Shown: in pieces, positions 1,161 to 14,873 of the stretch | Position numbering within the stretch: position 1 is the first letter of the stretch | How the letters are laid out: every line of letters starts with the position of its first letter | Translations under genes and position numbers: made by a program | The notes under the pieces: generated by a model | The model's input: the letters and a program-made list of their open reading frames with translations, nothing else | What the model was told of the DNA's origin: nothing | Database searches by the model: none | DNA from: Thermosulfurimonas sp. F29 | GTDB lineage: Bacteria > Desulfobacterota > Thermodesulfobacteria > Thermodesulfobacteriales > Thermodesulfobacteriaceae | Direction: 5' to 3' | Length of the DNA: 64,000 nt | Assembly: GCF_019688735.1 (NCBI RefSeq) | Contig: NZ_JAIFYA010000002.1 | Span: 310,001-374,000, forward strand

Positions 1161-2324
1161 TTAATGCTCCTCAGGCCGATGCCCGTCAAAAGTCATCTCT
1201 CCCCAGAGGAAAAGCGAGCCAAATAGTCCCAGCGATCCTATTACTATCAACCACTCAGAAAGAGATGGAACATAATGATAATATTCCGGCAGCCCGTAAA
1301 TATGCATTCCCGCATAGTGAGGGACTATCTGTCCCCCGATGACCAGGTCGTAACGCATAACAAAGATAGCCAGCAGGGCTAATCCGGATACATAAGCCAT
1401 GGCATTAATATCCCGAGCCCGGACTCCCACTACCACCAAGAAGGGTAATACCAGCCCCAGGAAGACCTCAAAGACCCAGAAATTAAAGGCAAAAGGTCCC
1501 TTCAGCATAGCCATAATAGTTTCCCATTTGCCGTGTGGTTTTCCAGCCAGGCTGGCAATGATTTTCCAGATCGTAAAGAAGATTACCACCGCGGTAAGAA
1601 GAGCATAGACCTTCCCGGTTACCCGAAGGGCCTCCCGTACGGAATCTTCCATGGGGCGTTCGGAGAGCCTATAAGCCAGCCAGGTGAAGAAAATAATTGC
1701 TGCAGCTCCACTCATCATGGCCGAAGCGATAAAATAGATAGGCATATAAGGTCCGTACCAGAATTCATGGGCATGAATAAGGCCGAAGACGGCTCCCAGG
1801 TTACTGTGTGCGGCTACTCCGGAAATAACCCCCATAAGACCGGCCAGAGCCGCTTCCTTATGCCTTCCCAACCTTATAAGACCGAACTCAATAAGCATAA
1901 AAAACAGATAAGCTCCGTAAAGGGTCCCCATCCACCAGATGTTTGACCGAAGATTGGGGGAAAGAGCATTCCAGATGGGCAGTCGCCATGGATTTTCAAG
2001 TTCCAGCCCTATGGCAAAAAAGCCGGCCAATATGGTACATATAGCAAGAAAAATACTCCGACTCGCTACCGGTTCCATGGGTTTATATCCAAACACATGT
2101 CCTATAGAGGAGGTAAGACATAGTCCGGTAGATGTTACTACCCAAAATACATAAGTAGAAATCAAAATACCCCAGGGAATCTCTCGTGTAACTCCATAAG
2201 CTTCCAAATGTCCTACCATAAAACTTCTTATTCCTGTAACTAAACCTATTCCTAATAAAATTAAGGAAATTACAAACAGAGCTATAATCTTAGAATTTCT
2301 AACTTCCGACTGAGCTGTAAGCAT
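1161..2324 (-). CDS. NrfD/PsrC-like quinol-interacting membrane subunit
   Basis: Polytopic membrane protein of 387 residues with about ten hydrophobic segments, matching the NrfD/PsrC/DsrP family that exchanges electrons between membrane quinone and an exported ferredoxin subunit. The start at 2324 (MLTAQSEV) has a strong AAGGAGG; an ATG 21 bases upstream has none. It is first in a three-gene unit with the Tat ferredoxin and the cytochrome, and a good promoter (TTGACT, 18 bp, TATAAG) precedes it. Inference: the module connects the quinone pool with periplasmic cytochromes. No catalytic molybdopterin subunit is visible, so whether it reduces or oxidises quinone cannot be told. Confidence 0.87.
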   Translation of the reverse strand: MLTAQSEVRNSKIIALFVISLILLGIGLVTGIRSFMVGHLEAYGVTREIPWGILISTYVFWVVTSTGLCLTSSIGHVFGYKPMEPVASRSIFLAICTILAGFFAIGLELENPWRLPIWNALSPNLRSNIWWMGTLYGAYLFFMLIEFGLIRLGRHKEAALAGLMGVISGVAAHSNLGAVFGLIHAHEFWYGPYMPIYFIASAMMSGAAAIIFFTWLAYRLSERPMEDSVREALRVTGKVYALLTAVVIFFTIWKIIASLAGKPHGKWETIMAMLKGPFAFNFWVFEVFLGLVLPFLVVVGVRARDINAMAYVSGLALLAIFVMRYDLVIGGQIVPHYAGMHIYGLPEYYHYVPSLSEWLIVIGSLGLFGSLFLWGEMTFDGHRPEEH

Positions 2325-2363
2325 AAAAAACCTCCTTATCAGCAAATTTGGAGTTTAGATTTT

Positions 2364-2393
2364 CTTATATCAGAGCGAAATAGGGATAGTCAA
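2364..2393 (-). promoter_or_regulatory. sigma-70-like promoter for the NrfD-ferredoxin-cytochrome unit
   Basis: On the minus strand TTGACT (2393-2388) and TATAAG (2369-2364) are separated by 18 bp, about 30 bases upstream of the NrfD-like start codon. The region is AT-rich, so chance matches are possible, but position and spacing fit well. Confidence 0.6.
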
Positions 2394-2529
2394 ATCTGAT
2401 TTTTTCTAATTACGGGACTATAAAGTGGATATGAAGATGTTAAAAAATTTTTGACCTATCTTTTACAAGAAGAGACAAATTTCAGACCCCTAGAGGAGGG
2501 AAGTCCTAAAATCTCGTGCAGGAGAACAC

Positions 2530-2558
2530 GGGAGGCCCGGAATGGAACCGGACCTCCC
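2530..2558 (-). terminator. strong hairpin after the hexahaem cytochrome gene
   Basis: Two 11-base arms (GGGAGGCCCGG and CCGGACCTCCC) flank a 7-base loop. Read on the minus strand, the single mismatch becomes a G-U pair. It lies about 40 bases past the stop of the cytochrome gene. No T-run follows, so it may be an mRNA-stabilising or Rho-assisted end rather than a classical intrinsic terminator. Confidence 0.5.
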
Positions 2559-2599
2559 GGAATAACTAGAATTGATTGTTATTATTAATTCTGATCCAC

Positions 2600-4030
2600 T
2601 TATTCCTCTCCCACTATAGTATCTAAGACCTCAGGATTTTGTTCATCTTCGGCCAGCAAATTATGGCACAATGTGCAGTCTTGAGTAATTGTTTCTCCAT
2701 CCTTACTTTCAAACTCATCATTATGACATCTCCAGCATCCCTTATGACTGAGAAAATTAGGATATGTATTCCAGGATATTCTCATTTCAGGAAATACATT
2801 AAGCATATACGCTTCAATAGATGCCTTTATAGCTTCCTGTATTTTTTGTGAATCTTTCTTAACCAGCTCCGGATAATTTTTCTTATAGAACGACAGGATA
2901 TATTCACTTATTTTTTGCCGAGCCTCTTCCCTTGAAGCGTATTTCTTGGTTATGGCTTCCAGAGATACTTTTTTGATAAAAGGTATATCTTCAGGCATTT
3001 TCCCCTGAACAAATTCTAGATCTATAGCCTCTTCAGGAGAGTGGAAGATATGAGTAGGACGATTATGACAATCCAGACAATCCATTTTGCGAATATGTAC
3101 TTCTTTCTCCTCAGGTTTACCCTCAGAGTCTGCTTCCTCACTTTTCTTAAATATAGTCTTCTTTCCGTTTTCAATCTTTACTACCTCTACAATATTCTCC
3201 CTTTTCTCGTCAGTATATTTGTAAAATATCTGTACCTCAGGAGAAACATGCCAATGGATCCCCTGAGCCCTGTTCGCCCGCATACCGCCGGTTCCGGTTT
3301 TCATTAAAAGAATGGTGTAAAGTTTGCTATTTTTTTCATCAGGGGCTCTTTTTTCCTTAATAACTAATTTATAACCTATAAAGAACTCCGGACGATGACA
3401 TTCCTCACAGGTCTCCCTGGCAGGACGAAGGTTATGAAGAGGAGTAGGAATAGGACGCGGATACTTATTACTTAAATATTCCACTACTTCTCTCATACCG
3501 GATAATTTTGATTTCACAAACCAACTTGCTCCGGGACCAATATGACATTCAACACATTTCACATGAGAATGGGGGGAATGTTGGTAGGCGGTATACTCCG
3601 GCTTCATCACTCTATGACATAGCCTACCACAAAAATTAACTGATTCTGTATAATGGTAAGCACTATATACAATAGCTCCCATACAAATAAGAACAAGAGT
3701 TAGAACTACAGAAGTTACTAAAGCGGTTTCTTTCAATACCTTAGCCTTATCAGCTTTTTTAATCAATTCTCCAATAACAGCTGGAGAGAAAAAACCTTGG
3801 CGAGAAATAAAAATACCCACACAAAACAGAGCTAAACCAAAAACCATCAAAGGGAAAATTCCCAGATAGAATATTTCTTGCCATACAGGAGAGGAAACAT
3901 GGTAAGTACTATCTATAAAAGAAAATATTGTAAGAGGCGGAACTGTTATAAGCAAAATTATAGTACCAATAAGACAAAACTTATTCTGTTTGATAAAATT
4001 TCTAAAAAAAATCCACCCCTCCCTTAGCAT
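2600..4030 (-). CDS. NapC/NirT-like membrane-anchored hexahaem cytochrome c
   Basis: 476 residues. Three hydrophobic segments lie in the first 125 residues (about 18-40, 50-77 and 102-124). An extracytoplasmic domain follows with six haem motifs: CGRLCH (a CX3CH site at about 134-139), CVECH, CEECH, CLDCH, CWRCH and CTLCH. The block around the first two haems, with MKPEYTAYQ-SPHS and IGPGASWFVKSKLSG, is typical of the NapC/NirT family that takes electrons from quinol. A good ribosome site (AAGGAGGGG) precedes the ATG. Codon use is AT-rich, unlike genes beyond 5.5 kb. The hairpin after its stop separates it from the next unit. Likely role: quinol oxidation feeding periplasmic or outer-surface acceptors; the acceptor is unknown. 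Confidence 0.88.
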   Translation of the reverse strand: MLREGWIFFRNFIKQNKFCLIGTIILLITVPPLTIFSFIDSTYHVSSPVWQEIFYLGIFPLMVFGLALFCVGIFISRQGFFSPAVIGELIKKADKAKVLKETALVTSVVLTLVLICMGAIVYSAYHYTESVNFCGRLCHRVMKPEYTAYQHSPHSHVKCVECHIGPGASWFVKSKLSGMREVVEYLSNKYPRPIPTPLHNLRPARETCEECHRPEFFIGYKLVIKEKRAPDEKNSKLYTILLMKTGTGGMRANRAQGIHWHVSPEVQIFYKYTDEKRENIVEVVKIENGKKTIFKKSEEADSEGKPEEKEVHIRKMDCLDCHNRPTHIFHSPEEAIDLEFVQGKMPEDIPFIKKVSLEAITKKYASREEARQKISEYILSFYKKNYPELVKKDSQKIQEAIKASIEAYMLNVFPEMRISWNTYPNFLSHKGCWRCHNDEFESKDGETITQDCTLCHNLLAEDEQNPEVLDTIVGEE

Positions 4031-4502: not shown

Positions 4503-5417
4503 TTATCGGAAACAAACAATCGTATTGTAATCGATTTTATGAAAGACATAAATACAGAAAAGAGAAATCATCAAATATAGCCAACGAGAGCGCCTTAGCG
4601 AAATGAAATACCACATTGACCAGCATTCCCAGGCGAAGGGAGGAAACCCGAGATATCCGGCCACGGGCATCTCAAAAAGCTTGAAACGCATGAGCCACTC
4701 CCAGGGCAGCGTGTATATCCACTTGGTACCGGCCCAGTAGTTCCAGGACTCCCAGAAAAATCCGCATATAAGTCCTGATAAAAGAAGAAGGGCGGGGCGC
4801 CGAAAGGAACCCCGCCGGAGATCTTCCAGAAGAGAATCCTCAGGTCGAAGCAGGTAATTGATGGGCTCAAGGAGCAAAAAGCCCCAGGCCCAGACCAGAG
4901 GGAAAAAGTAGCGGGGATAGGCCACGGGCAACAGGGCACATAGTAATCCTAAAACGGTGAGGAGGGGAAACCATCGGGGGGGATCCGGAACGGGACGGAC
5001 TTTAAAAGGAGCTTTCCAGAGGTAATCGAGTAAATCGTAGGTTTCAAAGATGCCCGGAAGGACGGTGGCAAAGGCCAGAGTATATCCGAGCCAGCGCACC
5101 CAGAGTGAGGCGGGCACATTGACATAGGCCCAGTTCTTAAGAAAGAGATTGAACCATTCAAAAACCAGCCACACGAACACCGAAATAAAGGAAAGTTCCA
5201 GGAACTCCCGGGGCCCGGAGGTGAGCCGGGAAGAACCTTTTAGCCTAAGGTTGAGCCAGTCCACGAAAAAGATGTAGTTCCACCAGGCGAAGAGATAAAA
5301 CCAGGTCTTCAGGAAGGGACAGCCCAGAGCCAACCCGATAGCCGCAGTCAGGAATACTCCCAGAGCCAGCGGGCCGTAAATTTTCCGGAGAGCCATCATA
5401 CGCCGGTCCCGGATCAT
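4503..5417 (-). CDS. polytopic integral membrane protein, function unknown
   Basis: About 304 residues with roughly eight hydrophobic segments rich in Trp and Phe. Motifs that look conserved are VFEWFN, PGIFETYD, CGFFWESWNYW and FEMPVAGYLGFPPFAWE. Acidic residues inside membrane segments suggest an enzyme or transporter acting on a lipid, but I do not recognise the family. The start at 5417 (MIRDRRMMALRK) has AGGA 7 bases upstream; an ATG 27 bases earlier is possible. It is transcribed away from the hydrogenase genes, and its last 20 codons run into AT-rich sequence. No role can be assigned from neighbours. Confidence 0.7.
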   Translation of the reverse strand: MIRDRRMMALRKIYGPLALGVFLTAAIGLALGCPFLKTWFYLFAWWNYIFFVDWLNLRLKGSSRLTSGPREFLELSFISVFVWLVFEWFNLFLKNWAYVNVPASLWVRWLGYTLAFATVLPGIFETYDLLDYLWKAPFKVRPVPDPPRWFPLLTVLGLLCALLPVAYPRYFFPLVWAWGFLLLEPINYLLRPEDSLLEDLRRGSFRRPALLLLSGLICGFFWESWNYWAGTKWIYTLPWEWLMRFKLFEMPVAGYLGFPPFAWECWSMWYFISLRRSRWLYLMISLFCIYVFHKIDYNTIVCFR

Positions 5418-5518
5418 AAGTATATCCTGCTTCTGTCGCCCCACATGGCGGAATCCGCCGGATATTTTTTCATGCCCGTAAAAGTTTTACAAGAATAAAG
5501 GATAATTATAGAGGTATT

Positions 5519-5581: not shown

Positions 5582-7045
5582 ATGAAAAAGACCCTTTCAC
5601 CGCTTACACGGATAGAAGGGCACCTCAGTGTGGAAACCGAGGTGCGGGATGGGGTAGTGGTCTCGGCGCGCTGCCGCGGGGAGATGTATCGAGGTTTTGA
5701 GAATCTGTTAGTGGGGCGAAGACCGCTTGACGCTCAGCGTATTACCCAGCGTATCTGCGGAGTTTGTCACGAGGTTCACGGGGTAGCCTCGGCCCGGGCC
5801 CTGGCCCAACTCTACGGGATTGAACCACCGCCCAACGGACGCCTACTGCAGGACATAATCCTGGCCCTCCACATGGCCACCGACCACATCCTCCACTTTT
5901 ATCACCTCGCGCTCCCGGATTATGTGGACTTTGCCGTCGTGCTTTCCTATCGGGGAAGAGATCCGGCTCTAAAGCACTTAAGGGAGTGGGTCAGGATCCG
6001 CAAGCCCTGGCTTTTCGTGAAGAAGGTTCCGGGGGATTATCTCTCCGAGCCCTCTCAGGCCCTGCCTTTTGTAGCCCATTATTTTGAGGCCCTGGAGGTA
6101 GTGGGGCGGGGCGCGCAGGCTCTGGCGGTCTTCGGGGGGAAGGTGCCCTTTACTCATGCCATCTTTCCCGGGGGAGTCACGGTGGAACTCACCCCGGAAA
6201 AGGCGGCCAAGGTTTCGGAGATCGTTGACGAGCTTTATCGGTTTGCGGTGACGACCTATCTTCCGGATGTGGAAAGACTGGCCGGGATCTACCGTGAATA
6301 TTTCAGGATCGGTCGGGGGTACTTCAACCTCATTTCCTATGGAGGATTTGCCTCCCTTGGAGAGCCCCTATCCCGGCCCGGGGTACTCATAAACTTCGAG
6401 GAAAGGCCGTTTGAGGTGGAAAAGATCGTGGAGCATGTAGCGCATTCCTATTACGAGGGCGGTCTCCGTAGTTTCCGGGAGGGGGAGACCAGGCCGGCCT
6501 ACGGGAAGGCCGGGGCCTATTCCTGGATCAAGGCTCCGCGCTACGATGGCCATCCCATGGAAACCGGGCCACTTTCCCGGGTCTGGTTTTCCCAAAAAGG
6601 AAGGGCCTTACTCCTCAAGCGTCTCAAAACTCTGAAGCAAGCCAGGGAGGCCATCTTTTCCACCATGGGGCGTCATCTTTCCCGGGCGGTGGAATCGGTG
6701 ATACTTCTGGAATTCTGTCAGGAAGCTCTTTCGGCCCTTGACTTTACTCAGCCAACCATAGTGACCGTAAATCCCGAGGCCGCGGTAAGCGGTTCGGGCC
6801 TGGGCTTATCCAACGCCGCCCGGGGGGAGCTCCTCCATTATGTTGAGGCCGAAAGGGGCCGCATAACCCGTTATCAGTGCGTGGTGCCGAGCACCTGGAA
6901 TTTTTCTCCCAGGGACGCGGAGGGGAAACCCGGGCCGGTGGAAAAGGCCCTGGAGGGGTGTCCGGTGCGATTCGGGGAGGGGCTGATAGAGGTGGGAAGG
7001 GTGGTCAGAAGTTACGATCCCTGTCTGGCCTGCAGCATCCACTGA
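5582..7045 (+). CDS. [NiFe] hydrogenase large subunit without C-terminal extension
   Basis: 487-residue catalytic subunit. The N-terminus SPLTRIEGHL, the L1 nickel motif RICGVCHEVH (Cys59, Cys62, His66), the active-site segment DGHPMETGPLSRV and the L2 motif DPCLACSIH are all present. L2 ends exactly at the stop codon, so the usual C-terminal peptide removed by a maturation protease is absent. I start it at the ATG at 5582 because the conserved N-terminus begins there; an in-frame TTG lies at 5537. The large subunit precedes the small, the reverse of most group 1 operons. No cytochrome b, maturation protease or hyp genes follow. Instead a chemoreceptor is third in the unit, which suggests a sensory role. 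Confidence 0.93.
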   Translation: MKKTLSPLTRIEGHLSVETEVRDGVVVSARCRGEMYRGFENLLVGRRPLDAQRITQRICGVCHEVHGVASARALAQLYGIEPPPNGRLLQDIILALHMATDHILHFYHLALPDYVDFAVVLSYRGRDPALKHLREWVRIRKPWLFVKKVPGDYLSEPSQALPFVAHYFEALEVVGRGAQALAVFGGKVPFTHAIFPGGVTVELTPEKAAKVSEIVDELYRFAVTTYLPDVERLAGIYREYFRIGRGYFNLISYGGFASLGEPLSRPGVLINFEERPFEVEKIVEHVAHSYYEGGLRSFREGETRPAYGKAGAYSWIKAPRYDGHPMETGPLSRVWFSQKGRALLLKRLKTLKQAREAIFSTMGRHLSRAVESVILLEFCQEALSALDFTQPTIVTVNPEAAVSGSGLGLSNAARGELLHYVEAERGRITRYQCVVPSTWNFSPRDAEGKPGPVEKALEGCPVRFGEGLIEVGRVVRSYDPCLACSIH

Positions 7046-7057
7046 GGAGGGGGGCTG

Positions 7058-7999
7058 ATGGATCTTTACCTTAATCGCCGAGAGTTCCTCAAGTTTTGCG
7101 GGAAACTATCCGTAGCCCTCTGTGGCACGGAGTCTCTCACGGAGGACCTTGCCCGGGCCTTTATGAAAATCGCCCGGAAGGAACCACCCGTGATATGGCT
7201 TACGGGGCAGGCCTGTTCCGGGGATTCTGTATCTCTGGTTTACTGCGATTCTCCGGGGCTGGTGCCGTTGCTTACGGCTCTGGTGGATCTCAAGTTTCAT
7301 CCGGTTCTTTCCGTGGCTCAGGGTGAAGAGGTGCTGAGAATTATTCGGGACATGAGAAGGGCCGGGGGCTACATCCTCTGCTTTGAGGGAACCATTCCGA
7401 TGAAAATGAAGGGCGCGTGCACCCTGGGGGAGGATTATCTGGCGGATTTCCTGAAAGAGGTGGTTGAACCGGCCCTGGCGGTTGTAGCCTGCGGGACCTG
7501 TGCCTCTTACGGAGGAATTCCCGCTAAAAATCCCGAGACCGGGGCTGTAAGCGTTCCGGAGTATCTCGGAAGAACGGGTATTGAAAAGCCGGTGGTAAGA
7601 ATCCCGGGCTGTCCCATGAACGGGGTGCGTTTTACCGGCACGGTGGCCTATTTCGTGGCTTACGGACGGTTGCCGAAACTGGACAAGGATGGAAGGCCGG
7701 TGATGTACTACGAGGAGGTCATTCATCAGAACTGTCAGCGTTTTCAGTGGTTCAACCAGGACCAATATGTCATGGATTATGCCCGGGACAAGAGAAAGTG
7801 TCTCTTCAGAATGGGATGCCGGGGACCGGTAACCCATGCCGATTGTCCCTTAAGGCGCTGGAATCGTAACACCTCCTGGTGCGTGGATGCCAATACGCCC
7901 TGTGTGGGATGTGCTCATCCGGCCTGGCCCTGGTCCAGGGAGGAAGGAATTTATACCGATCCCCGGAAGATAAAACCCGAGGCCTTTATCGGAGGTTAA
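7058..7999 (+). CDS. [NiFe] hydrogenase small (Fe-S) subunit with Asp in the proximal-cluster motif
   Basis: 313 residues. The twin-arginine motif NRREFLKF suggests Tat export of the heterodimer to the periplasm. After PPVIWLTGQ, the proximal-cluster motif reads C53-S-G-D56 where most families have CxxC, so an Asp replaces the second Cys. The codon is clearly GAT. Further cluster Cys are in [32 protein letters not shown] and [12 protein letters not shown]. No C-terminal hydrophobic anchor is present, so it should be soluble or held by a partner. A comparable three-Cys one-Asp proximal cluster is known from the actinobacterial-type hydrogenase of Ralstonia eutropha. It starts 12 bp after the large subunit and stops one base before the receptor gene. 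Confidence 0.92.
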
Positions 8000-8000
8000 G

Positions 8001-9530
8001 ATGGCTTTCAAGTTGAGCCATAAGATTTTACTGCTGGTTTTTCTCATATGTTTTATCTTTACCGGTATTACCTATTATACCGAGAAAAGAGTACGAAGGC
8101 TCCTCGAGGGCACCCTCCTTACCAATATCCAGAATCTCTCCCGGATAGCGGTTCAGGGAGCCGTGGATTCCCTGCGAAAAGGGAACATGGCCAACTTTTC
8201 CCGGCTTCTAAAGGTCATTGCCCGGGAAAAAGGGGTCCTGGAATTCTCTCTCACCGACGGTCAGGGGCGGGTGCTTTATTCTTCCAGGGAAGATTCCAGA
8301 GGGAAAAATTACCGGACTCTTCTTCGGCAAACCATTCACATAAAAGAAAACGGTATCATTTCGGTGGTTCCGGTAAAGACCACCCGGTACTGTCTGAGAT
8401 GTCATCCGGGATGGCGGGAGGGACGGGCGGAAAGTTACTTTGTGCTTTTTTATTCCAATGAGGCACTGAGTAATCTTTCGGAACTTACACACCGGCGTTT
8501 CTATGTAATATTATTTACGGCTATCCTGGTACTGATTCTGGCCTGGCTATTTTATCACTTCAGTATAGGCCGTCCTTTAGAGAACCTGGTTCGGGGGATT
8601 GCCCGAATTTCCGAGGGCGATCTCAGCTATCGTTTTAAGGTCAGAGGACGGGATGAGATCGGGGAGATGACCAGGGACCTCAACCGTATGGTGGAGAGAC
8701 TTTCGGGAGATTTAGTAAATCTTGCGGAGAAGGCGGCCCGGATGGGAGAAATAACGGGCACGGTGGTTTCGGAGACGGAGAGCATTGGGGCGGAGGCCGA
8801 ACATCAAAAGGTCCTCGTGGAAAGAGCCAAGGGTAGCTCGGCTAAATTGGCGAGCGTTAAGGAGGAGACGGTCCGGGCGGAAGAAGCCGTTAAACAGGTG
8901 CATGAACTGGTCTCTTCCGGGGAGGCCCTTCTCAATCAGGTTCAGGGGCTTGCGGAACGCACCTCGGAAAGGGTTGAGCATGTATGGCGTAGTATTTCCC
9001 GTCTGCACGAACTTTCCGGAGAAATAGGAAGGATAAGCCAGACTATTCGGGATATTGCCAATCATACCCATCTTCTGGCGTTAAACGCCACTATTGAGGC
9101 CGCCCGGGCCGGAGAGGCCGGGAAGGGTTTTGCCGTGGTGGCCAATGAGGTCAAAGAGCTCTCCCGTCAGACCGAGGAGGCCACCGGCGAGATCGAGAAG
9201 CTGATCTCCGAGATCTCCGGAGGGGTGGAAGAGAGCGTAAACATCATGAAGGAGACCCTAGAAGAAGCCCGATCCGGTAAAGAAAAGGCGGCCGAGGTAT
9301 ACCAATTTTTCCAACAGATCTTTCAAGAAATGCAGACCGTATCGCAGACTTTTGAACATACCCGGACCGTGATGGAGGAAATGACGAAGGTGATCACCCG
9401 GGAGATCGGAGAAATTTATCAGGGAGCGTTAAAGAACGAGCAAACCATGGAGAGACTGAAAAATCTCTCGGTAGAGCTTCGCAACCTGGTAGAGGAACTG
9501 GAAAACCTGATAAAGAAGGTAAAGGGCTAG
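8001..9530 (+). CDS. methyl-accepting chemotaxis protein with periplasmic haem c motif
   Basis: 509-residue receptor. TM1 is at about 8-26, a periplasmic sensor domain spans about 28-165, TM2 lies at about 167-187, then a HAMP domain and a cytoplasmic signalling domain whose tip contains [27 protein letters not shown]. The sensor domain carries CLRCH (Cys131, Cys134, His135), a c-type haem site. Geobacter receptors with periplasmic haem c PAS-like domains are known precedents. The ATG follows the small-subunit stop by one base with GGAGG in front, so it is co-translated with the hydrogenase. Inference: it reads the redox state set by periplasmic H2 oxidation and signals to CheA. It might instead sense redox, CO or NO. 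Confidence 0.93.
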
Positions 9531-9663: not shown

Positions 9664-10779
9664 ATGCTAAAACTCATCCTTCTGTTTATCCTGACTGTGG
9701 GAATCTATGTCTACTATCTTTTCCGGAAAAGATCGGCCTCAGAATTTCACTCCGGCCCGGGAATATCCACTTCGGGAACCCTCGAAAAGAGCCCCCCTGC
9801 GGAGTTTCCCCGGGATCTCGGTAAGGATCTCCGGGATCACCGGCATCAGCAGGATCAGGAAGTTGAAAATTTCGTCGTTTATGACCTGACCCGGTATGAG
9901 TGGATCCCGGGGTTCTCCTCTGAAAAAGTAGAAAAAGAGGTCACCGCTTTTCTCAAAAACATACCCCCGCCGGAAATACTCTCCTCCAAACTTCATCGGC
10001 TCCTGGCCAGTCCCGACGCCAACTTCAAGGAAATCGCCAGGATCATCTCTCTGGACCCCCTTCTCACCGCGGAAGTTCTCCGGATAGCCAACTCGGCCTA
10101 CTATCGAACCACCGCCTCCCAGAAGATCACTTCGGTCCATCGGGCCATCGTTCTTCTGGGATACAATCAGCTCCGCATGATCCTCCTGCATTATTTCTTT
10201 CGTAAAACCTTGGACAAGTATTCTCCGCTGAGTGCCCGGGAGATAAGAGACATCTGGAAACATTCCGTGGAAGTCTCCGGAATACTAGGCTATATAGCCC
10301 TCCGTAAAGGATACGACCCAGGACTTTACATCACCGCCGGCATCCTTCACGATGTGGGAAAATTCTTCCTTCCCCTCTTCGGAGAAGAAGGTTTTTGCTC
10401 CTCCAGTGCCTGCACGGAGGATTTGCCGCCTTTAAAGGAGGAGGAAATCAGGTACGGATTCGGCCATCACCTCCTCGGTGGGCTTCTGGTCAAATTCTGG
10501 GATCTGCCCTCGGAGATCTACGCGGCTACCGCCTATCACCATCCTGTATCCCGAGAGCAATTCTGGGATCTTCCGCCGGAGGAAAGAAAACTGGCCGCTT
10601 GGGTGGCGGTGGCCGATTACCTGTCCCACCTTTACGGGGGCCTCGAAAGCAGGTACGCCTACCGAATTCCGGGATGGATCTACCGGATCCTCGAAATCAG
10701 AGGACCGGCCGAAAAACTGGCCACCGGGGAACTCCTCTCCTCCCTGCGAAAGGCCTCCCTGGTGGCCGAAGGACTCTAG
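9664..10779 (+). CDS. membrane-anchored HDOD-domain signalling protein
   Basis: 371 residues. One N-terminal membrane segment (about 2-18) precedes a low-complexity linker and an HDOD domain (about 90-300) with ISLDPLLTAEVLRIANSAYY, an HD-like GILHDVGK and YHHPVS. HDOD proteins are usually non-catalytic adaptors in bacterial signalling, often linked with chemotaxis or cyclic-di-GMP pathways. It lies 133 bp after the haem receptor on the same strand, which may indicate joint function; there is no clear terminator between them. The ribosome site is weak. Its stop overlaps the stop of the convergent formate dehydrogenase gene by a few bases (CTAG). Confidence 0.82.
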   Translation: MLKLILLFILTVGIYVYYLFRKRSASEFHSGPGISTSGTLEKSPPAEFPRDLGKDLRDHRHQQDQEVENFVVYDLTRYEWIPGFSSEKVEKEVTAFLKNIPPPEILSSKLHRLLASPDANFKEIARIISLDPLLTAEVLRIANSAYYRTTASQKITSVHRAIVLLGYNQLRMILLHYFFRKTLDKYSPLSAREIRDIWKHSVEVSGILGYIALRKGYDPGLYITAGILHDVGKFFLPLFGEEGFCSSSACTEDLPPLKEEEIRYGFGHHLLGGLLVKFWDLPSEIYAATAYHHPVSREQFWDLPPEERKLAAWVAVADYLSHLYGGLESRYAYRIPGWIYRILEIRGPAEKLATGELLSSLRKASLVAEGL

Positions 10780-13700
10780 ACCTTTTCCACCCTCACCGCC
10801 GCTACCTTGTATTCCGGGGTGTGCACCTTAACATCGAGCCCGGGGCTGGTAACCAGATTGGTAAGGGGTTCCTCGAAGTGGAAATCCATGAAGAGGATTC
10901 CCGGATTGACCCGGGAGGAGATGTGCACCCTTGCGGAGATGGCCGCCCGGCGGCTCACGATGCGAACGAGATCCCTCTCCCGTAGCTTCAGACGGCGGGC
11001 GTCCTTGGGATGCATCTCCACCAGCTCCTCGGGAACCAGCTCCATGAGACCCTCTATCCTCCTGGTCATGGAACCGCAATTGTAATGGTAAAGGCGTCTT
11101 CCGGTGATGAGAAGAAAGGGGTAATCCCCTCCGGGTTCCTCCTCCGAGGGCCAGTACCTGGGAAGGGCAAAACTGGCCTTCCCGGAGGCCGTGGCAAACC
11201 TTTCCGTGAACATGAGCTCGGTGCCGGGATGGTCTTCGTCGGGAACGGGCCAGCACAGGCCCTTTTCCTCGAGTCTTTCGTAGGTTATGCCCGCAAAGGC
11301 AGGTATCACCCGGCGCATCTCCTCGAAGATGTCCCGGGACGAACGATAGGGCATCTCGTACCCCAGACGCCGGGAAATCTCGGCGATGATCCACCAATCC
11401 GGAGGCACCCCCGCCGGCGGATCCACCAGCTTCCTTATCCGCTGAACCCGGCGTTCTCCGTTGTCCGTGGTGCCGTCCTTTTCAAAAAGACAGGCCACCG
11501 GAAACACCACATGGGCGAATTCCCCGGTCCTGGGGAAGAAGATGTCGTGCACCACCAGAAGCTCCAGGTTCCTCAGGGCCCGGTGCACCATGGTGAGGTT
11601 GCCGTGCGTCATCGCAATGTCGTAACCCACTACATAGAGGGCCTTGAAACGCCCGGCCAGGGCCTCCTGATACATCCGGGGCTCCGTAAGACCGGGTTTT
11701 TCCGGAAGAGGACGCCCCCAGATCTCCTCGAACTTTTTGCGCACCAGGGGGTCCTCCGGCTTCTGATACCCCGGAAGCACATAGGGAAGGGCCCCCATGT
11801 CGCAGGCCCCCTGCACATTGTTCTGTCCCCGCAGGGGCATGGCCCCGGTGCCCGGACGCCCCACATGCCCGCACAGAAGGGCCAGATTGGCCAGCGACAT
11901 CACCCCGTAACTTCCGCTGCGGTGCTCCGCCACCCCCAGTCCCCACAGAATTAAAGCCCTTTCGGCCCGGGCGTAAAGGCGGGCCACCTGTTCTATGTAT
12001 TCCCGCCGGATACCCGTCAGTCTTTCCACCTTCTCCAGGGGCCACTCCGTAAGGATGTAGCGGGCGTAGGCCTCGAAGTTCTCGGTGCGCTTCCGTATGA
12101 ATTCCTCGTCGTAAAGGCCTTCTCTCAGGATGACATGCGCGATGCCGTTGGCCAGCGCCACATTGGTGCCGGGCCGAAGCGGAAGCCACAGATCGGCCAG
12201 CGCGGCGAGCTCCGTCTTCCGGGGATCCACCACCACCAGTTTGAGCCCCCTCTCCAGGGCCCGCCTGATTTTGTAGCCCACGATGGGATGGGCCTCGGTG
12301 GGGTTGGCTCCCCAGAGCACGAGAACCTCGGCCCTCAGGATCTCGTCGAAGCTTCCCGTGGCCGCTCCGGATCCGAAGGTGGCCGCGAGACCCGCGACCG
12401 AGGGAGCGTGTCAGACGCGGGCCGGATTGTCTACATTGTGGGTCCCCAGCACCGCCCGGGCGAACTTCTGAGCCACATAGGTCTCCTCGTTGGTGGTCCG
12501 CGCCGAACACAGGACCCCTATGGCTTCCGGTCCGTCCTTGTCCCGGATCTCCCTGAGGCGTTCGGCCACGAAATCGAGGGCCTCCTCCCAGGAGACCTCC
12601 CGAAAGGGTTGCCCCCGGTCGGTGCGCATGAGGGGTTTGCGAAGGCGGTCCGGATGACGATAGAAGGTGTATCCGAAGCGTCCCTTCACGCATAATTCCC
12701 CGTAATTGGGAGGCACCGGAGCCCCGGTGACCTCAAGGATGCTTCCGTTCTTGACCCGGGCCAGCAGGTTGCAACCCGTCCCGCAATAAACGCAAACCGT
12801 GCGAATTTCCCGGGCCTCTCCCCGTCCGAAAGGCACCGTGGAATCCTTTCTGGTAAGGGCCCCGGTGGGACAGGCGTCCACGCAGGCCCCGCAGGAAACG
12901 CAGTTTTCCGTAAAACTGAAGTGGATCTCCTCTTCCTCCGTGCCCTGAGCGTAAATCTTGAGCTCCAGGCCCTCGTGATTGCAGCTTCTCACGCAGCGGA
13001 AACACCCCACGCACTTGTTGGAGTCCACCTCTATGAAGGGATGATCCGTCTCCAGCCGGTACTTGGCCCGTTTGCGCCCCCGGGCTGGCACATCCTCGGC
13101 TATAAGAATCTCCCGGAAGGTGCACTTGTGAAACCCCAGACAGCCGCACTTGAGACACCTCTCGGCCTCCCTCCGGGCCTCCTCCTCCGCTAGGGTCCCC
13201 ACCACCTCGGAAAAGTCCCCTACCCTTTCCCCGGGATCCCTTTCCGGAGGACTGACCCTTTCGGCCGGGGGAAACTGTCCGTAGAACTCGAGATCCATCT
13301 CCTCGGGCCGACGCCCGCGATTGAAGTCGAACTTCACCGTGGGAAGGGCCCGGGGTTTCTTCAGGCCCGTCAGGTAGGCGTGAATGGCCTCGGCCGCGCG
13401 GCGCCCCGAGGCCACCGCCTGAATCACCGTCTTGGGACCGGTGACGAAATCCCCTCCGGCAAACACCCCGGAAAGACTGGTGGCCTGGCTTCCGCTCTGG
13501 ACCTTCAGTTGACCCGTGGGGGTGGTGGCCAGTTGAGCCTCCAGCTCCCCGAAGTTCCTGAAGGAGGTGTCCGGTTCCTCCCCCCAGGCCCGCACCACCA
13601 GGTCAAACTCGTAATCCCTTTCGCTTCCCTCAAGAGGTACCACCTTGCGGGCCTTGGTTTTGGGATCCGGTTCGGAAAGGACCGTGCGGGCTATCCGCAC

Positions 13701-14873
13701 CCGATAACCGCTTTCCGTCTTTTCGATCCCCAGCGGAAGGGCCATCAGGAAGAGCTCCACCCCCTCGGCCTCGGCGGCCCTCACCTCCCTCTGCGGGGCG
13801 GGCATCTCCACCCGCGAGCGGGGATAGACCAGGGTCACCCGGGCCCCGAGACGCACCAGCGCCCGCGCCGTATCCACCGCGGTGTACCCGCCCCCCATAA
13901 CCAGAACCCTCTGCCCCTCTCTTACGGGAAGATCCCTTCCCGCGGCAAGCTCCTCCAGCAATTCCAGCCCCGAAAGGGCCTCCTCCTCCCCGGGCACCCC
14001 GTGTCCCCGATCCCGGAAGGCCCCTACGGCCAGAAAGATCGCGTCGTACCCCCGGTCAAAGAGATCCTTGAGGGTGAAATCCCGTCCCCAGGCCGTCCCG
14101 GTACGAAGCTCAATCCCCAGGGAAAGCAAGCCTTCAATTTCGCGTCTTACCACCTCCTTGGGAAGCTTGAATTCAGGAATGGCCCAGCGGGGCATTCCTC
14201 CCGGCTCTTCCCGAGCTTCGAAAATGGTCACTTCATGTCCACGGAGCCTCAGGTAGTAGGCCGCGGAGAGGCCGGCCGGCCCGGCTCCCACCACCGCCAC
14301 GCGTTTGCCCGTGGGAGGAGCCGTCTCCGGTCTGATCTCACCGTGCTCAAGGCCCCAGTCCGCCACGAAACGCTTGAGGTCGTTTATGGCCACCGGGGCG
14401 TCCACCAGAGCCCGGCGGCAACGGGGTTCACAGAAGCGGGGACAAACCCTTCCCACCGTGGCCGGAAGGGGAAGCTTTTCCTTGATGAGGCTTAAGGCCG
14501 AGGCGTATTCTCCCCGGGCGATAAAGGCGATGTAGCCCTGGATGTTGAGCCCTCCCGGACAGGGCTGACTGCAGGGGGCCTTGCAGTCCCCGTAATGGTT
14601 GGCTACCAGGGCCTCGAGTTTTTTGCGACGGGCCTCTTTTACGGCCTCTGAAACGGTGTTTACCCTGAGACCATCTTCCACCTTGGTGACGCAGGCCCGC
14701 ACCAGACCCCGGCCCTCCACCTCCACGAGACACAGCCCGCAAGGGGAAGGCGGCTCCGAGGCCCCGGGAAGGTAACACAGGGTGGGAATTTCGATGTTGG
14801 CCCTTCTGGCCACCTCAAGAAGGGTCTCCCCGGCCCGAACCTCTATCTCCTTTTCGTCCAGCCAGATCTTCAT
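10776..14873 (-). CDS. fdhA: selenocysteine formate dehydrogenase fused to 2Fe-2S and FAD/NAD(P) oxidoreductase domains
   Basis: 1365 residues with selenocysteine at 821. Domains in order: 2Fe-2S ferredoxin (1-100, Cys in CGLC), a GltD-like FAD/NAD(P) module (about 110-480, VGAGPAGLSAAYYL), a two-cluster ferredoxin (about 625-690, CVGCFRC and CVSCGACVDACP), then the formate dehydrogenase domain starting with the [4Fe-4S] motif VCVYCGTGC. An in-frame UGA at 12413-12411 falls exactly where FdhF-type enzymes have Sec (ARV-U-HAPSVAGL), and a SECIS-like hairpin follows. The reading frame continues intact to a TAG. Role: CO2 reduction to formate for the methyl branch. The fused flavin module suggests NAD(P)H and perhaps ferredoxin as electron sources. 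Last gene of the operon. Confidence 0.93.
12381..12399 (-). promoter_or_regulatory. SECIS element of fdhA
   Basis: On the minus strand the RNA forms a 7-bp stem (GGUCGCG with CGCGGCC, one G-U pair) and the loop GGUCU, the loop of the E. coli fdhF SECIS. The stem starts 11 bases after the UGA at 12413-12411, inside the coding region, as usual in bacteria. Confidence 0.88.

Follow-up and report, generated by a model that had tools for sequence, protein, structure and literature searches.

We analyzed a 64,000-nucleotide stretch of the genome of Thermosulfurimonas sp. F29 (contig NZ_JAIFYA010000002.1, positions 310,001 to 374,000; hereafter the window), in which three consecutive genes encode a [NiFe] hydrogenase large subunit, an exported small subunit and a methyl-accepting chemotaxis protein (MCP) with a periplasmic c-type haem site. 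The three genes very probably form an H2-sensing unit, and we hold with good confidence the fuller explanation that their products are a periplasmic H2-sensing chemoreceptor complex that passes electrons to the haem of the receptor. The sensing function is strongly supported because the gene order recurs across phyla, the large subunit carries a sensor-type C terminus, the linked large subunits form a single clade, and MCP, CheA-like and GGDEF outputs all occur. Our best reading is that the unit belongs to a class of sensory [NiFe] hydrogenases not reported before, which are exported and serve c-haem transducers, and in which haem is not needed everywhere. The genes and the hydrogenase features discussed below are the following.

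5582..7045, + strand: [NiFe] hydrogenase large subunit, 487 aa (open reading frame, Pfam and PDB matches)
7016..7045, + strand: extension-less C terminus of the large subunit, DPCLACSIH and then a stop codon (motif; 0.00 chance matches expected in the window)
7058..7999, + strand: hydrogenase small subunit, 313 aa, three Fe-S sites, no C-terminal membrane anchor
7073..7093, + strand: twin-arginine translocation (Tat) signal motif NRREFLK of the small subunit (sequence; RR kept in linked small subunits)
7223..7225, + strand: Asp of CSGD, where most relatives have the second Cys of the proximal cluster and locus L057 has Glu
8001..9530, + strand: MCP, 509 aa, transmembrane, with a periplasmic c-haem Cache domain, a HAMP domain and an MCP signalling domain

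All three open reading frames are complete, and the gaps between them measure 12 bases (large to small subunit) and 1 base (small subunit to MCP). Pfam matched the large subunit to NiFeSe_Hases (1e-114), the small subunit to NiFe_hyd_SSU_C (6.5e-26) and Oxidored_q6, and the receptor to HAMP (5.5e-17) and MCPsignal (1.1e-34); the ATG start at 5582 is consistent with a relative from the same genus (L058). The receptor gene is the sole follower directly 3' of the small-subunit gene, the upstream gene is divergent, and no cytochrome b, other cytochrome, Fe-S partner, hyp or maturation gene adjoins the unit. A preliminary description of this DNA had given the tight spacing of large subunit, Tat-leader small subunit and MCP, the lack of a cytochrome b, anchor or maturation gene, and a CLRCH motif in the periplasmic domain of the receptor, and this anatomy was borne out by the open reading frames, the Pfam matches and a Cache-fold model. 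It had overlooked the missing C-terminal extension, the invariant methionine of the receptor, the Cys-to-Asp exchange in CSGD and the breadth of conservation.

The closest PDB structures to the large subunit (~310 bits) are periplasmic NiFeSe and NiFe hydrogenases of group 1 (5JSU, 1CC1 and 3MYR), which likewise are Tat-exported heterodimers of the same fold and cluster content; NiFeSe enzymes also share the four-Cys medial cluster of the small subunit. Group 1 enzymes have a cleaved extension and respiratory partners, whereas the enzyme of the window has no extension, the large-subunit gene comes first, and a receptor takes the place of the cytochrome. The nickel site carries Cys and not selenocysteine (Sec), and this codon ruled out a NiFeSe enzyme with Sec. 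In the small subunit, the distal cluster keeps its His/Cys3 ligands, the medial cluster is all-Cys, and no hydrophobic anchor follows the last cysteine. Across 69 small subunits linked to a transducer gene, no ligand of the distal (His, three Cys) or medial (four Cys) cluster varies, and neither do three of the four proximal ones. The exception is the second proximal Cys, which is replaced by Asp in the clade of the window as well as two Planctomycetes, and by Glu in another two. An Asp-ligated proximal cluster is known in the actinobacterial-type hydrogenase. A degenerate or inactive hydrogenase was likewise rejected, both CxxC nickel motifs being intact and the Fe-S ligands complete except for this one exchange.

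Conservation was followed through 395 genomes of the phylum, with 41 genomes sampled in the class; the surroundings of ~60 large-subunit loci were examined, with phmmer run on all open reading frames to identify neighbours. A relative of the large subunit (at 1e-60) is present in 110 of these 395 genomes. The phylum has 21 more loci with the order large subunit, small subunit, MCP, all of them with CxxCH in the MCP, and the order is also found in other phyla, so that the adjacency is not confined to one genome, as the preliminary description had left conceivable, and chance adjacency was ruled out. Within the genus, two more genomes encode the large subunit at 81-82% identity; in L059 the unit is intact up to and including the MCP, and in L058 a contig end truncates it. 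Another three genomes of the genus, like all other sampled members of the family, lack a close relative. The nearest relatives beyond the family show 69% (another family of the same order) and 62% identity (another group of the same phylum). The three-gene unit is thus patchy in its distribution and, judging from these identities, probably moves between lineages.

Most [NiFe] large subunits possess a C-terminal extension, which an endopeptidase removes. The large subunit of the window and all 21 linked large subunits end exactly at DPCxACxxH. The phylum survey contains 26 extension-less large subunits, of which 21 have a CxxCH MCP as neighbour, three adjoin a di-haem CheA-like kinase and two lie at contig ends, whereas none of the 34 large subunits with an extension (NiFeSe enzymes with a Sec codon included) has a CxxCH MCP beside it; the contrast of 21/26 with 0/34 gives a Fisher p of 8e-12, with kinship ignored. 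The C terminus of the large subunit is, by its sequence, of the sensor type, for which endopeptidase cleavage is not needed. Such an ending is also found in the RH, a known H2 sensor whose large subunit has no C-terminal extension (PMC8229454).

A DNA motif for the extension-less C terminus, designed regardless of neighbours, caught every known linked large subunit and none with an extension, and a scan with it over ~85,000 species genomes yielded at least 80 loci. Among the matches listed, 44 loci had a small subunit after the large one and then a gene that could be read, and in every one of the 44 that gene was a transducer or had a transducer-like start: 26 mono-haem MCPs, three di-haem MCPs, four MCP pairs, seven MCPs without CxxCH, three genes cut before the haem site and one CheA-like kinase. 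Carriers among these matches include Desulfobulbaceae, Desulfobacterales, Desulfuromonas, Verrucomicrobia, Riflebacteria, Hydrogenedentes, Planctomycetota and Sulfurimonas, together with the cultured Gammaproteobacteria Thiocystis violacea DSM 208 and Sedimenticola selenatireducens DSM 17993. The other matches listed were HupV-like enzymes (several followed by hypF), a few Hdr/MetF-type clusters, contig ends and sequences other than large subunits.

Some units depart from the three-gene order. In Desulfotignum and Desulfobacula (L143 5637-8000, L172 3317-8000, L174 1423-5656), an additional receptor, in which no periplasmic haem domain is recognisable, comes after the small subunit; the haem receptor is next in L172 and L174, the loci that extend far enough. 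In one Verrucomicrobial genome, two extension-less hydrogenases are encoded divergently; two haem receptors come after one of them, and directly after the other pair (L279 5762-8207, - strand) we found no recognisable transducer.

We further placed the linked enzymes in an unrooted tree of 84 large subunits, L274 not among them, under a site-mixture model. A single branch (support 97) separates the 56 transducer-linked large subunits from the 28 others. In a larger quick tree, HupV-like large subunits form a clade of their own (100%) on a branch of length 1.44; membership of HupUV was ruled out by this separate clade and by the Tat signal on the small subunit.

The output attached to the hydrogenase varies. 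In Denitrovibrio sp. BM701 (L274 6367-8283), the protein after the hydrogenase combines a Met/CTRCH sensor with PAS and GGDEF domains, and the second hydrogenase unit of the same organism (L281) has an MCP output; the mono-haem sensor with Met and CxxCH is retained in both the MCP and the GGDEF forms. A CheA-kinase-like gene adjoins the hydrogenase divergently in a SAR324 genome (L275). At the three loci of the phylum survey with a di-haem kinase (L106 896-3241, L109 2557-5816, L111 3793-6129), an extension-less exported hydrogenase is followed by a membrane protein with two CxxCH motifs, which in L106 and L109, the two scanned, contains Hpt and HATPase domains; CheX and CheY come next in L109. 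This arrangement is a candidate for a second kind of H2-signalling unit. As encoded, the module is a hydrogenase plus a periplasmic haem sensor, with an MCP, a CheA-like kinase or a diguanylate cyclase as its predicted output.

These observations bear on whether the enzyme is an ordinary periplasmic uptake hydrogenase that gives its electrons mainly to soluble cytochromes c, with a receptor that, as has been proposed of DcrA and GSU0582, reads the general redox state. Its best structural matches are respiratory enzymes, redox sensing is an established role of haem c receptors (PMC8396549), and a multihaem cytochrome is encoded near the three-gene unit. However, the extension is found in no linked large subunit and in nearly all unlinked ones, the linked ones are a single clade, the unit has no cytochrome, anchor or peptidase, and the same genome encodes a separate group 1 hydrogenase with a C-terminal extension (L074). 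Moreover, the output domain has been swapped while the hydrogenase was kept, and a role as metabolic neighbour only is therefore hard to explain. We consider an uptake function quite improbable and retain the sensing unit as the explanation.

The features of the receptor are these.

8082..8510, + strand: periplasmic sensor domain, for which AlphaFold2 gives one Cache fold (pLDDT 85.6)
8187..8189, + strand: Met63, predicted distal haem ligand, invariant in linked mono-haem receptors (alignment and comparison with GSU0935)
8391..8405, + strand: CLRCH, covalent haem c site by motif (residues 131-135)
8562..8705, + strand: HAMP domain (Pfam)
8937..9395, + strand: MCP signalling domain (Pfam)

Only one of the eight MCPs of the genome, the receptor of the window, contains CxxCH. 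The sensor domains of 46 linked mono-haem receptors are 20-71% identical to that of the window, and the only invariant columns among them are G34, M36, L57, C104, C107 and H108. The invariant Met lies 70-85 residues N-terminal of the haem His; in GSU0935, the distal ligand Met60 precedes His144 by 84 residues, and the redox-linked loss and gain of Met60 is the proposed signal (PMC8396549). The AlphaFold2 model matches Cache folds (WalK, 4e-5) as well as GSU0935 and GSU0582 (3B42/3B47). The Pfam family Tll0287-like (DUF3365) gave weak matches in 13 of the 46 linked domains (best 0.0015) and none in the copy of the window.

The linked receptors of Planctomycetes (L148, L117, L147, L153, L266-L272 and L284-L286) have no CxxCH, and the Met site is occupied by Tyr, Phe, Ala, Gln, Ser, Thr, Gly or Val; the haem-less domain is also modelled as Cache, with lower confidence (pLDDT 74). 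One Phycisphaerae locus (L273), on a different branch of the large-subunit tree, keeps both CxxCH and Met. The joint loss of Met and CxxCH fits a role of the Met as haem ligand. Di-haem receptors have Arg at the Met site.

We propose that Tat would export a folded dimer of large and small subunits, for which proteolytic maturation would be unnecessary because the large subunit has no C-terminal extension, and that this dimer would stay periplasmic, serving the receptor as co-sensor and taking no part in respiration. Oxidation of H2 at the NiFe site would reduce the proximal, medial and distal Fe-S clusters in turn, and an electron from the distal cluster would reach the haem c of the Cache domain. 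Haem reduction would then drive Met63 on or off the haem and change the conformation of the Cache and HAMP domains; this change would alter CheA activity and thereby the swimming bias of the flagellated cell. That the proteins form a complex, that haem reduction depends on H2, and which way the cell would swim are all inferred. Electron transfer from the hydrogenase to the receptor haem appears likely, and it is plausible because the small subunit offers an Fe-S chain ending in a His/Cys3 distal cluster and the mono-haem receptors an invariant CxxCH plus Met. The haem potentials of GSU0582 and GSU0935 (-156 and -251 mV; PMC8396549) lie above the H2 couple, and the transfer would therefore be downhill.

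Three observations weigh against this explanation. A few extension-less large subunits reside in Hdr/MetF-type clusters and not beside a receptor (L152, L185, L194), so a missing extension alone is no proof of sensing. The Planctomycete receptors have no haem site even though their small subunits keep the Fe-S clusters, and haem reduction is therefore not the sole signalling route in the family. Lastly, fused sCache_heme domains are reported to be nitric oxide (NO) sensors (PMC12889525), and the receptor haem could thus sense a ligand. Signalling might instead occur by contact: the hydrogenase would dock on the Cache domain, its redox or catalytic state would be read as a change of shape, a mode also suggested for HoxBC and HoxJ, and the haem would serve as an extra input (redox or NO) or as a gate. 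Contact signalling stays a serious rival because the haem is dispensable in the Planctomycete branch, where receptors without CxxCH and Met are still linked to a hydrogenase, and HoxBC also works through its kinase HoxJ in a complex (PMC10073562). For contact, however, there would be no need of the haem site with its Met, retained in 46 of 46 mono-haem sensor domains, or of the distal cluster ligands, which every small subunit has; we therefore judge it unlikely. The proposal of the preliminary description thus stands as far as an H2-sensing hydrogenase-receptor unit is concerned, by gene order, C terminus, clade and outputs; the haem route does not hold for the whole family, the Planctomycete receptors being haem-less.

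The genome (2.35 Mb, 99.95% complete) encodes HypD, three TatC genes and flagellin elsewhere, and CheA, CheR, CheB and CheY lie within a flagellar cluster with FliA, FlhF, FlhA, FlhB and FliP. From this flagellar che cluster, flagellar H2 taxis appears a likely output in Thermosulfurimonas sp. F29. The receptor might instead sense H2 without steering swimming and feed another chemosensory pathway (pili, cyclic di-GMP or gene expression), as the CheA-like/CheX/CheY and GGDEF outputs elsewhere in the family and the presence of CheW-domain proteins at more than one locus of the genome would allow. The standard MCP signalling domain of the receptor and the placement of the che genes inside the flagellar cluster speak for taxis, and a non-swimming output seems to us rather doubtful.

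Among known systems, HoxBC/HupUV with the kinase HoxJ/HupT ([NiFe] group 2b) resembles the unit as a [NiFe] H2 sensor with an extension-less large subunit (PMC8229454) and a co-encoded transducer. It differs in being cytoplasmic and without a Tat signal, in acting through a soluble PAS kinase without haem c, and in controlling transcription; its large subunits occupy a separate long branch, whereas the best structural matches of the large subunit of the window are NiFeSe/group 1 enzymes, and the RREFLK Tat signal of the small subunit has no counterpart in the cytoplasmic group 2b hydrogenases. HydDB lists [FeFe] group C2 as putatively chemotactic, [NiFe] group 2b as linked to a kinase and [NiFe] group 2c, putatively, to a diguanylate cyclase, and no exported [NiFe] sensor is listed there (PMC5037454). 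Group C2 is alike in that the hydrogenase is proposed to sense H2 via MCPs, and group 2c via cyclic di-GMP; however, [FeFe] C2 is a non-homologous metal enzyme, whereas the large subunit of the window is a [NiFe] protein of PF00374, 2c is a group 2 enzyme, and neither is listed as exported or haem-linked.

On the receptor side, GSU0582 and GSU0935 of Geobacter, DcrA of Desulfovibrio and the sCache_heme/Tll0287 family share a periplasmic Cache/PAS-like domain, CxxCH and an MCP output with the receptor of the window, and GSU0935 shares Met as the distal haem ligand. They differ in their proposed role, the sensing of redox, NO or O2, and are only weakly similar in sequence; a hydrogenase link of haem c receptors is mentioned neither in a 2026 preprint on sCache_heme (PMC12889525) nor in a review of Geobacter chemotaxis (PMC8396549). 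In searches of the open-access literature we found no prior account of H2 taxis by such a unit, of a hydrogenase-MCP unit or of an exported [NiFe] sensor, and an earlier description elsewhere is possible. The preliminary statement that no system of this form had been described therefore needs qualification: it stands for the exported [NiFe] sensor and falls short in that [FeFe] C2, [NiFe] 2b/2c and DcrA came before. Given [FeFe] C2, hydrogenase-linked chemotaxis is not new as an idea.

Other features of the window lie outside the unit. A 313-aa multi-pass membrane protein (4503-5444, - strand), divergent from the hydrogenase, matched nothing in Pfam and NCBIfam scans. The stretch 2001-4000 has a G+C content of 0.37, compared with ~0.6 in most of the window, covers a gene for a NapC/NrfH-like multihaem cytochrome (2600-4030, - strand) beside NrfC- and NrfD-like genes, and is possibly acquired DNA. 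Acetyl-CoA-pathway, Nrf-like and multihaem cytochrome genes were seen. A formate-dehydrogenase-like gene (10776-14873, - strand) is a single frame broken by a TGA at 12411-12413, which open reading frame tools split into pieces of 820 and 514 aa; the TGA sits in ARV*HAPSVAG, the usual selenocysteine site.

Taken together, it is reasonably likely that the family is a new class of H2 sensor: an exported [NiFe] clade that would have abandoned respiration and would hand the electrons of H2 straight to the periplasmic haem of a transducer, with modular outputs in several phyla and a Planctomycete branch that later dropped the haem. A methanogen is reported to swim toward H2 (Brileya et al., as cited in PMC12403587), and we know of no bacterial H2 chemoreceptor. 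The three-gene unit is a specific candidate for one in bacteria of sulfate and sulfur metabolism, Thiocystis, Sedimenticola and others, and the haem-less Planctomycete branch offers a natural control. If the explanation is true, the unit would be a clear case of an enzyme that signals by handing electrons to a receptor, and it would give the otherwise puzzling periplasmic haem c receptors a physiological input.

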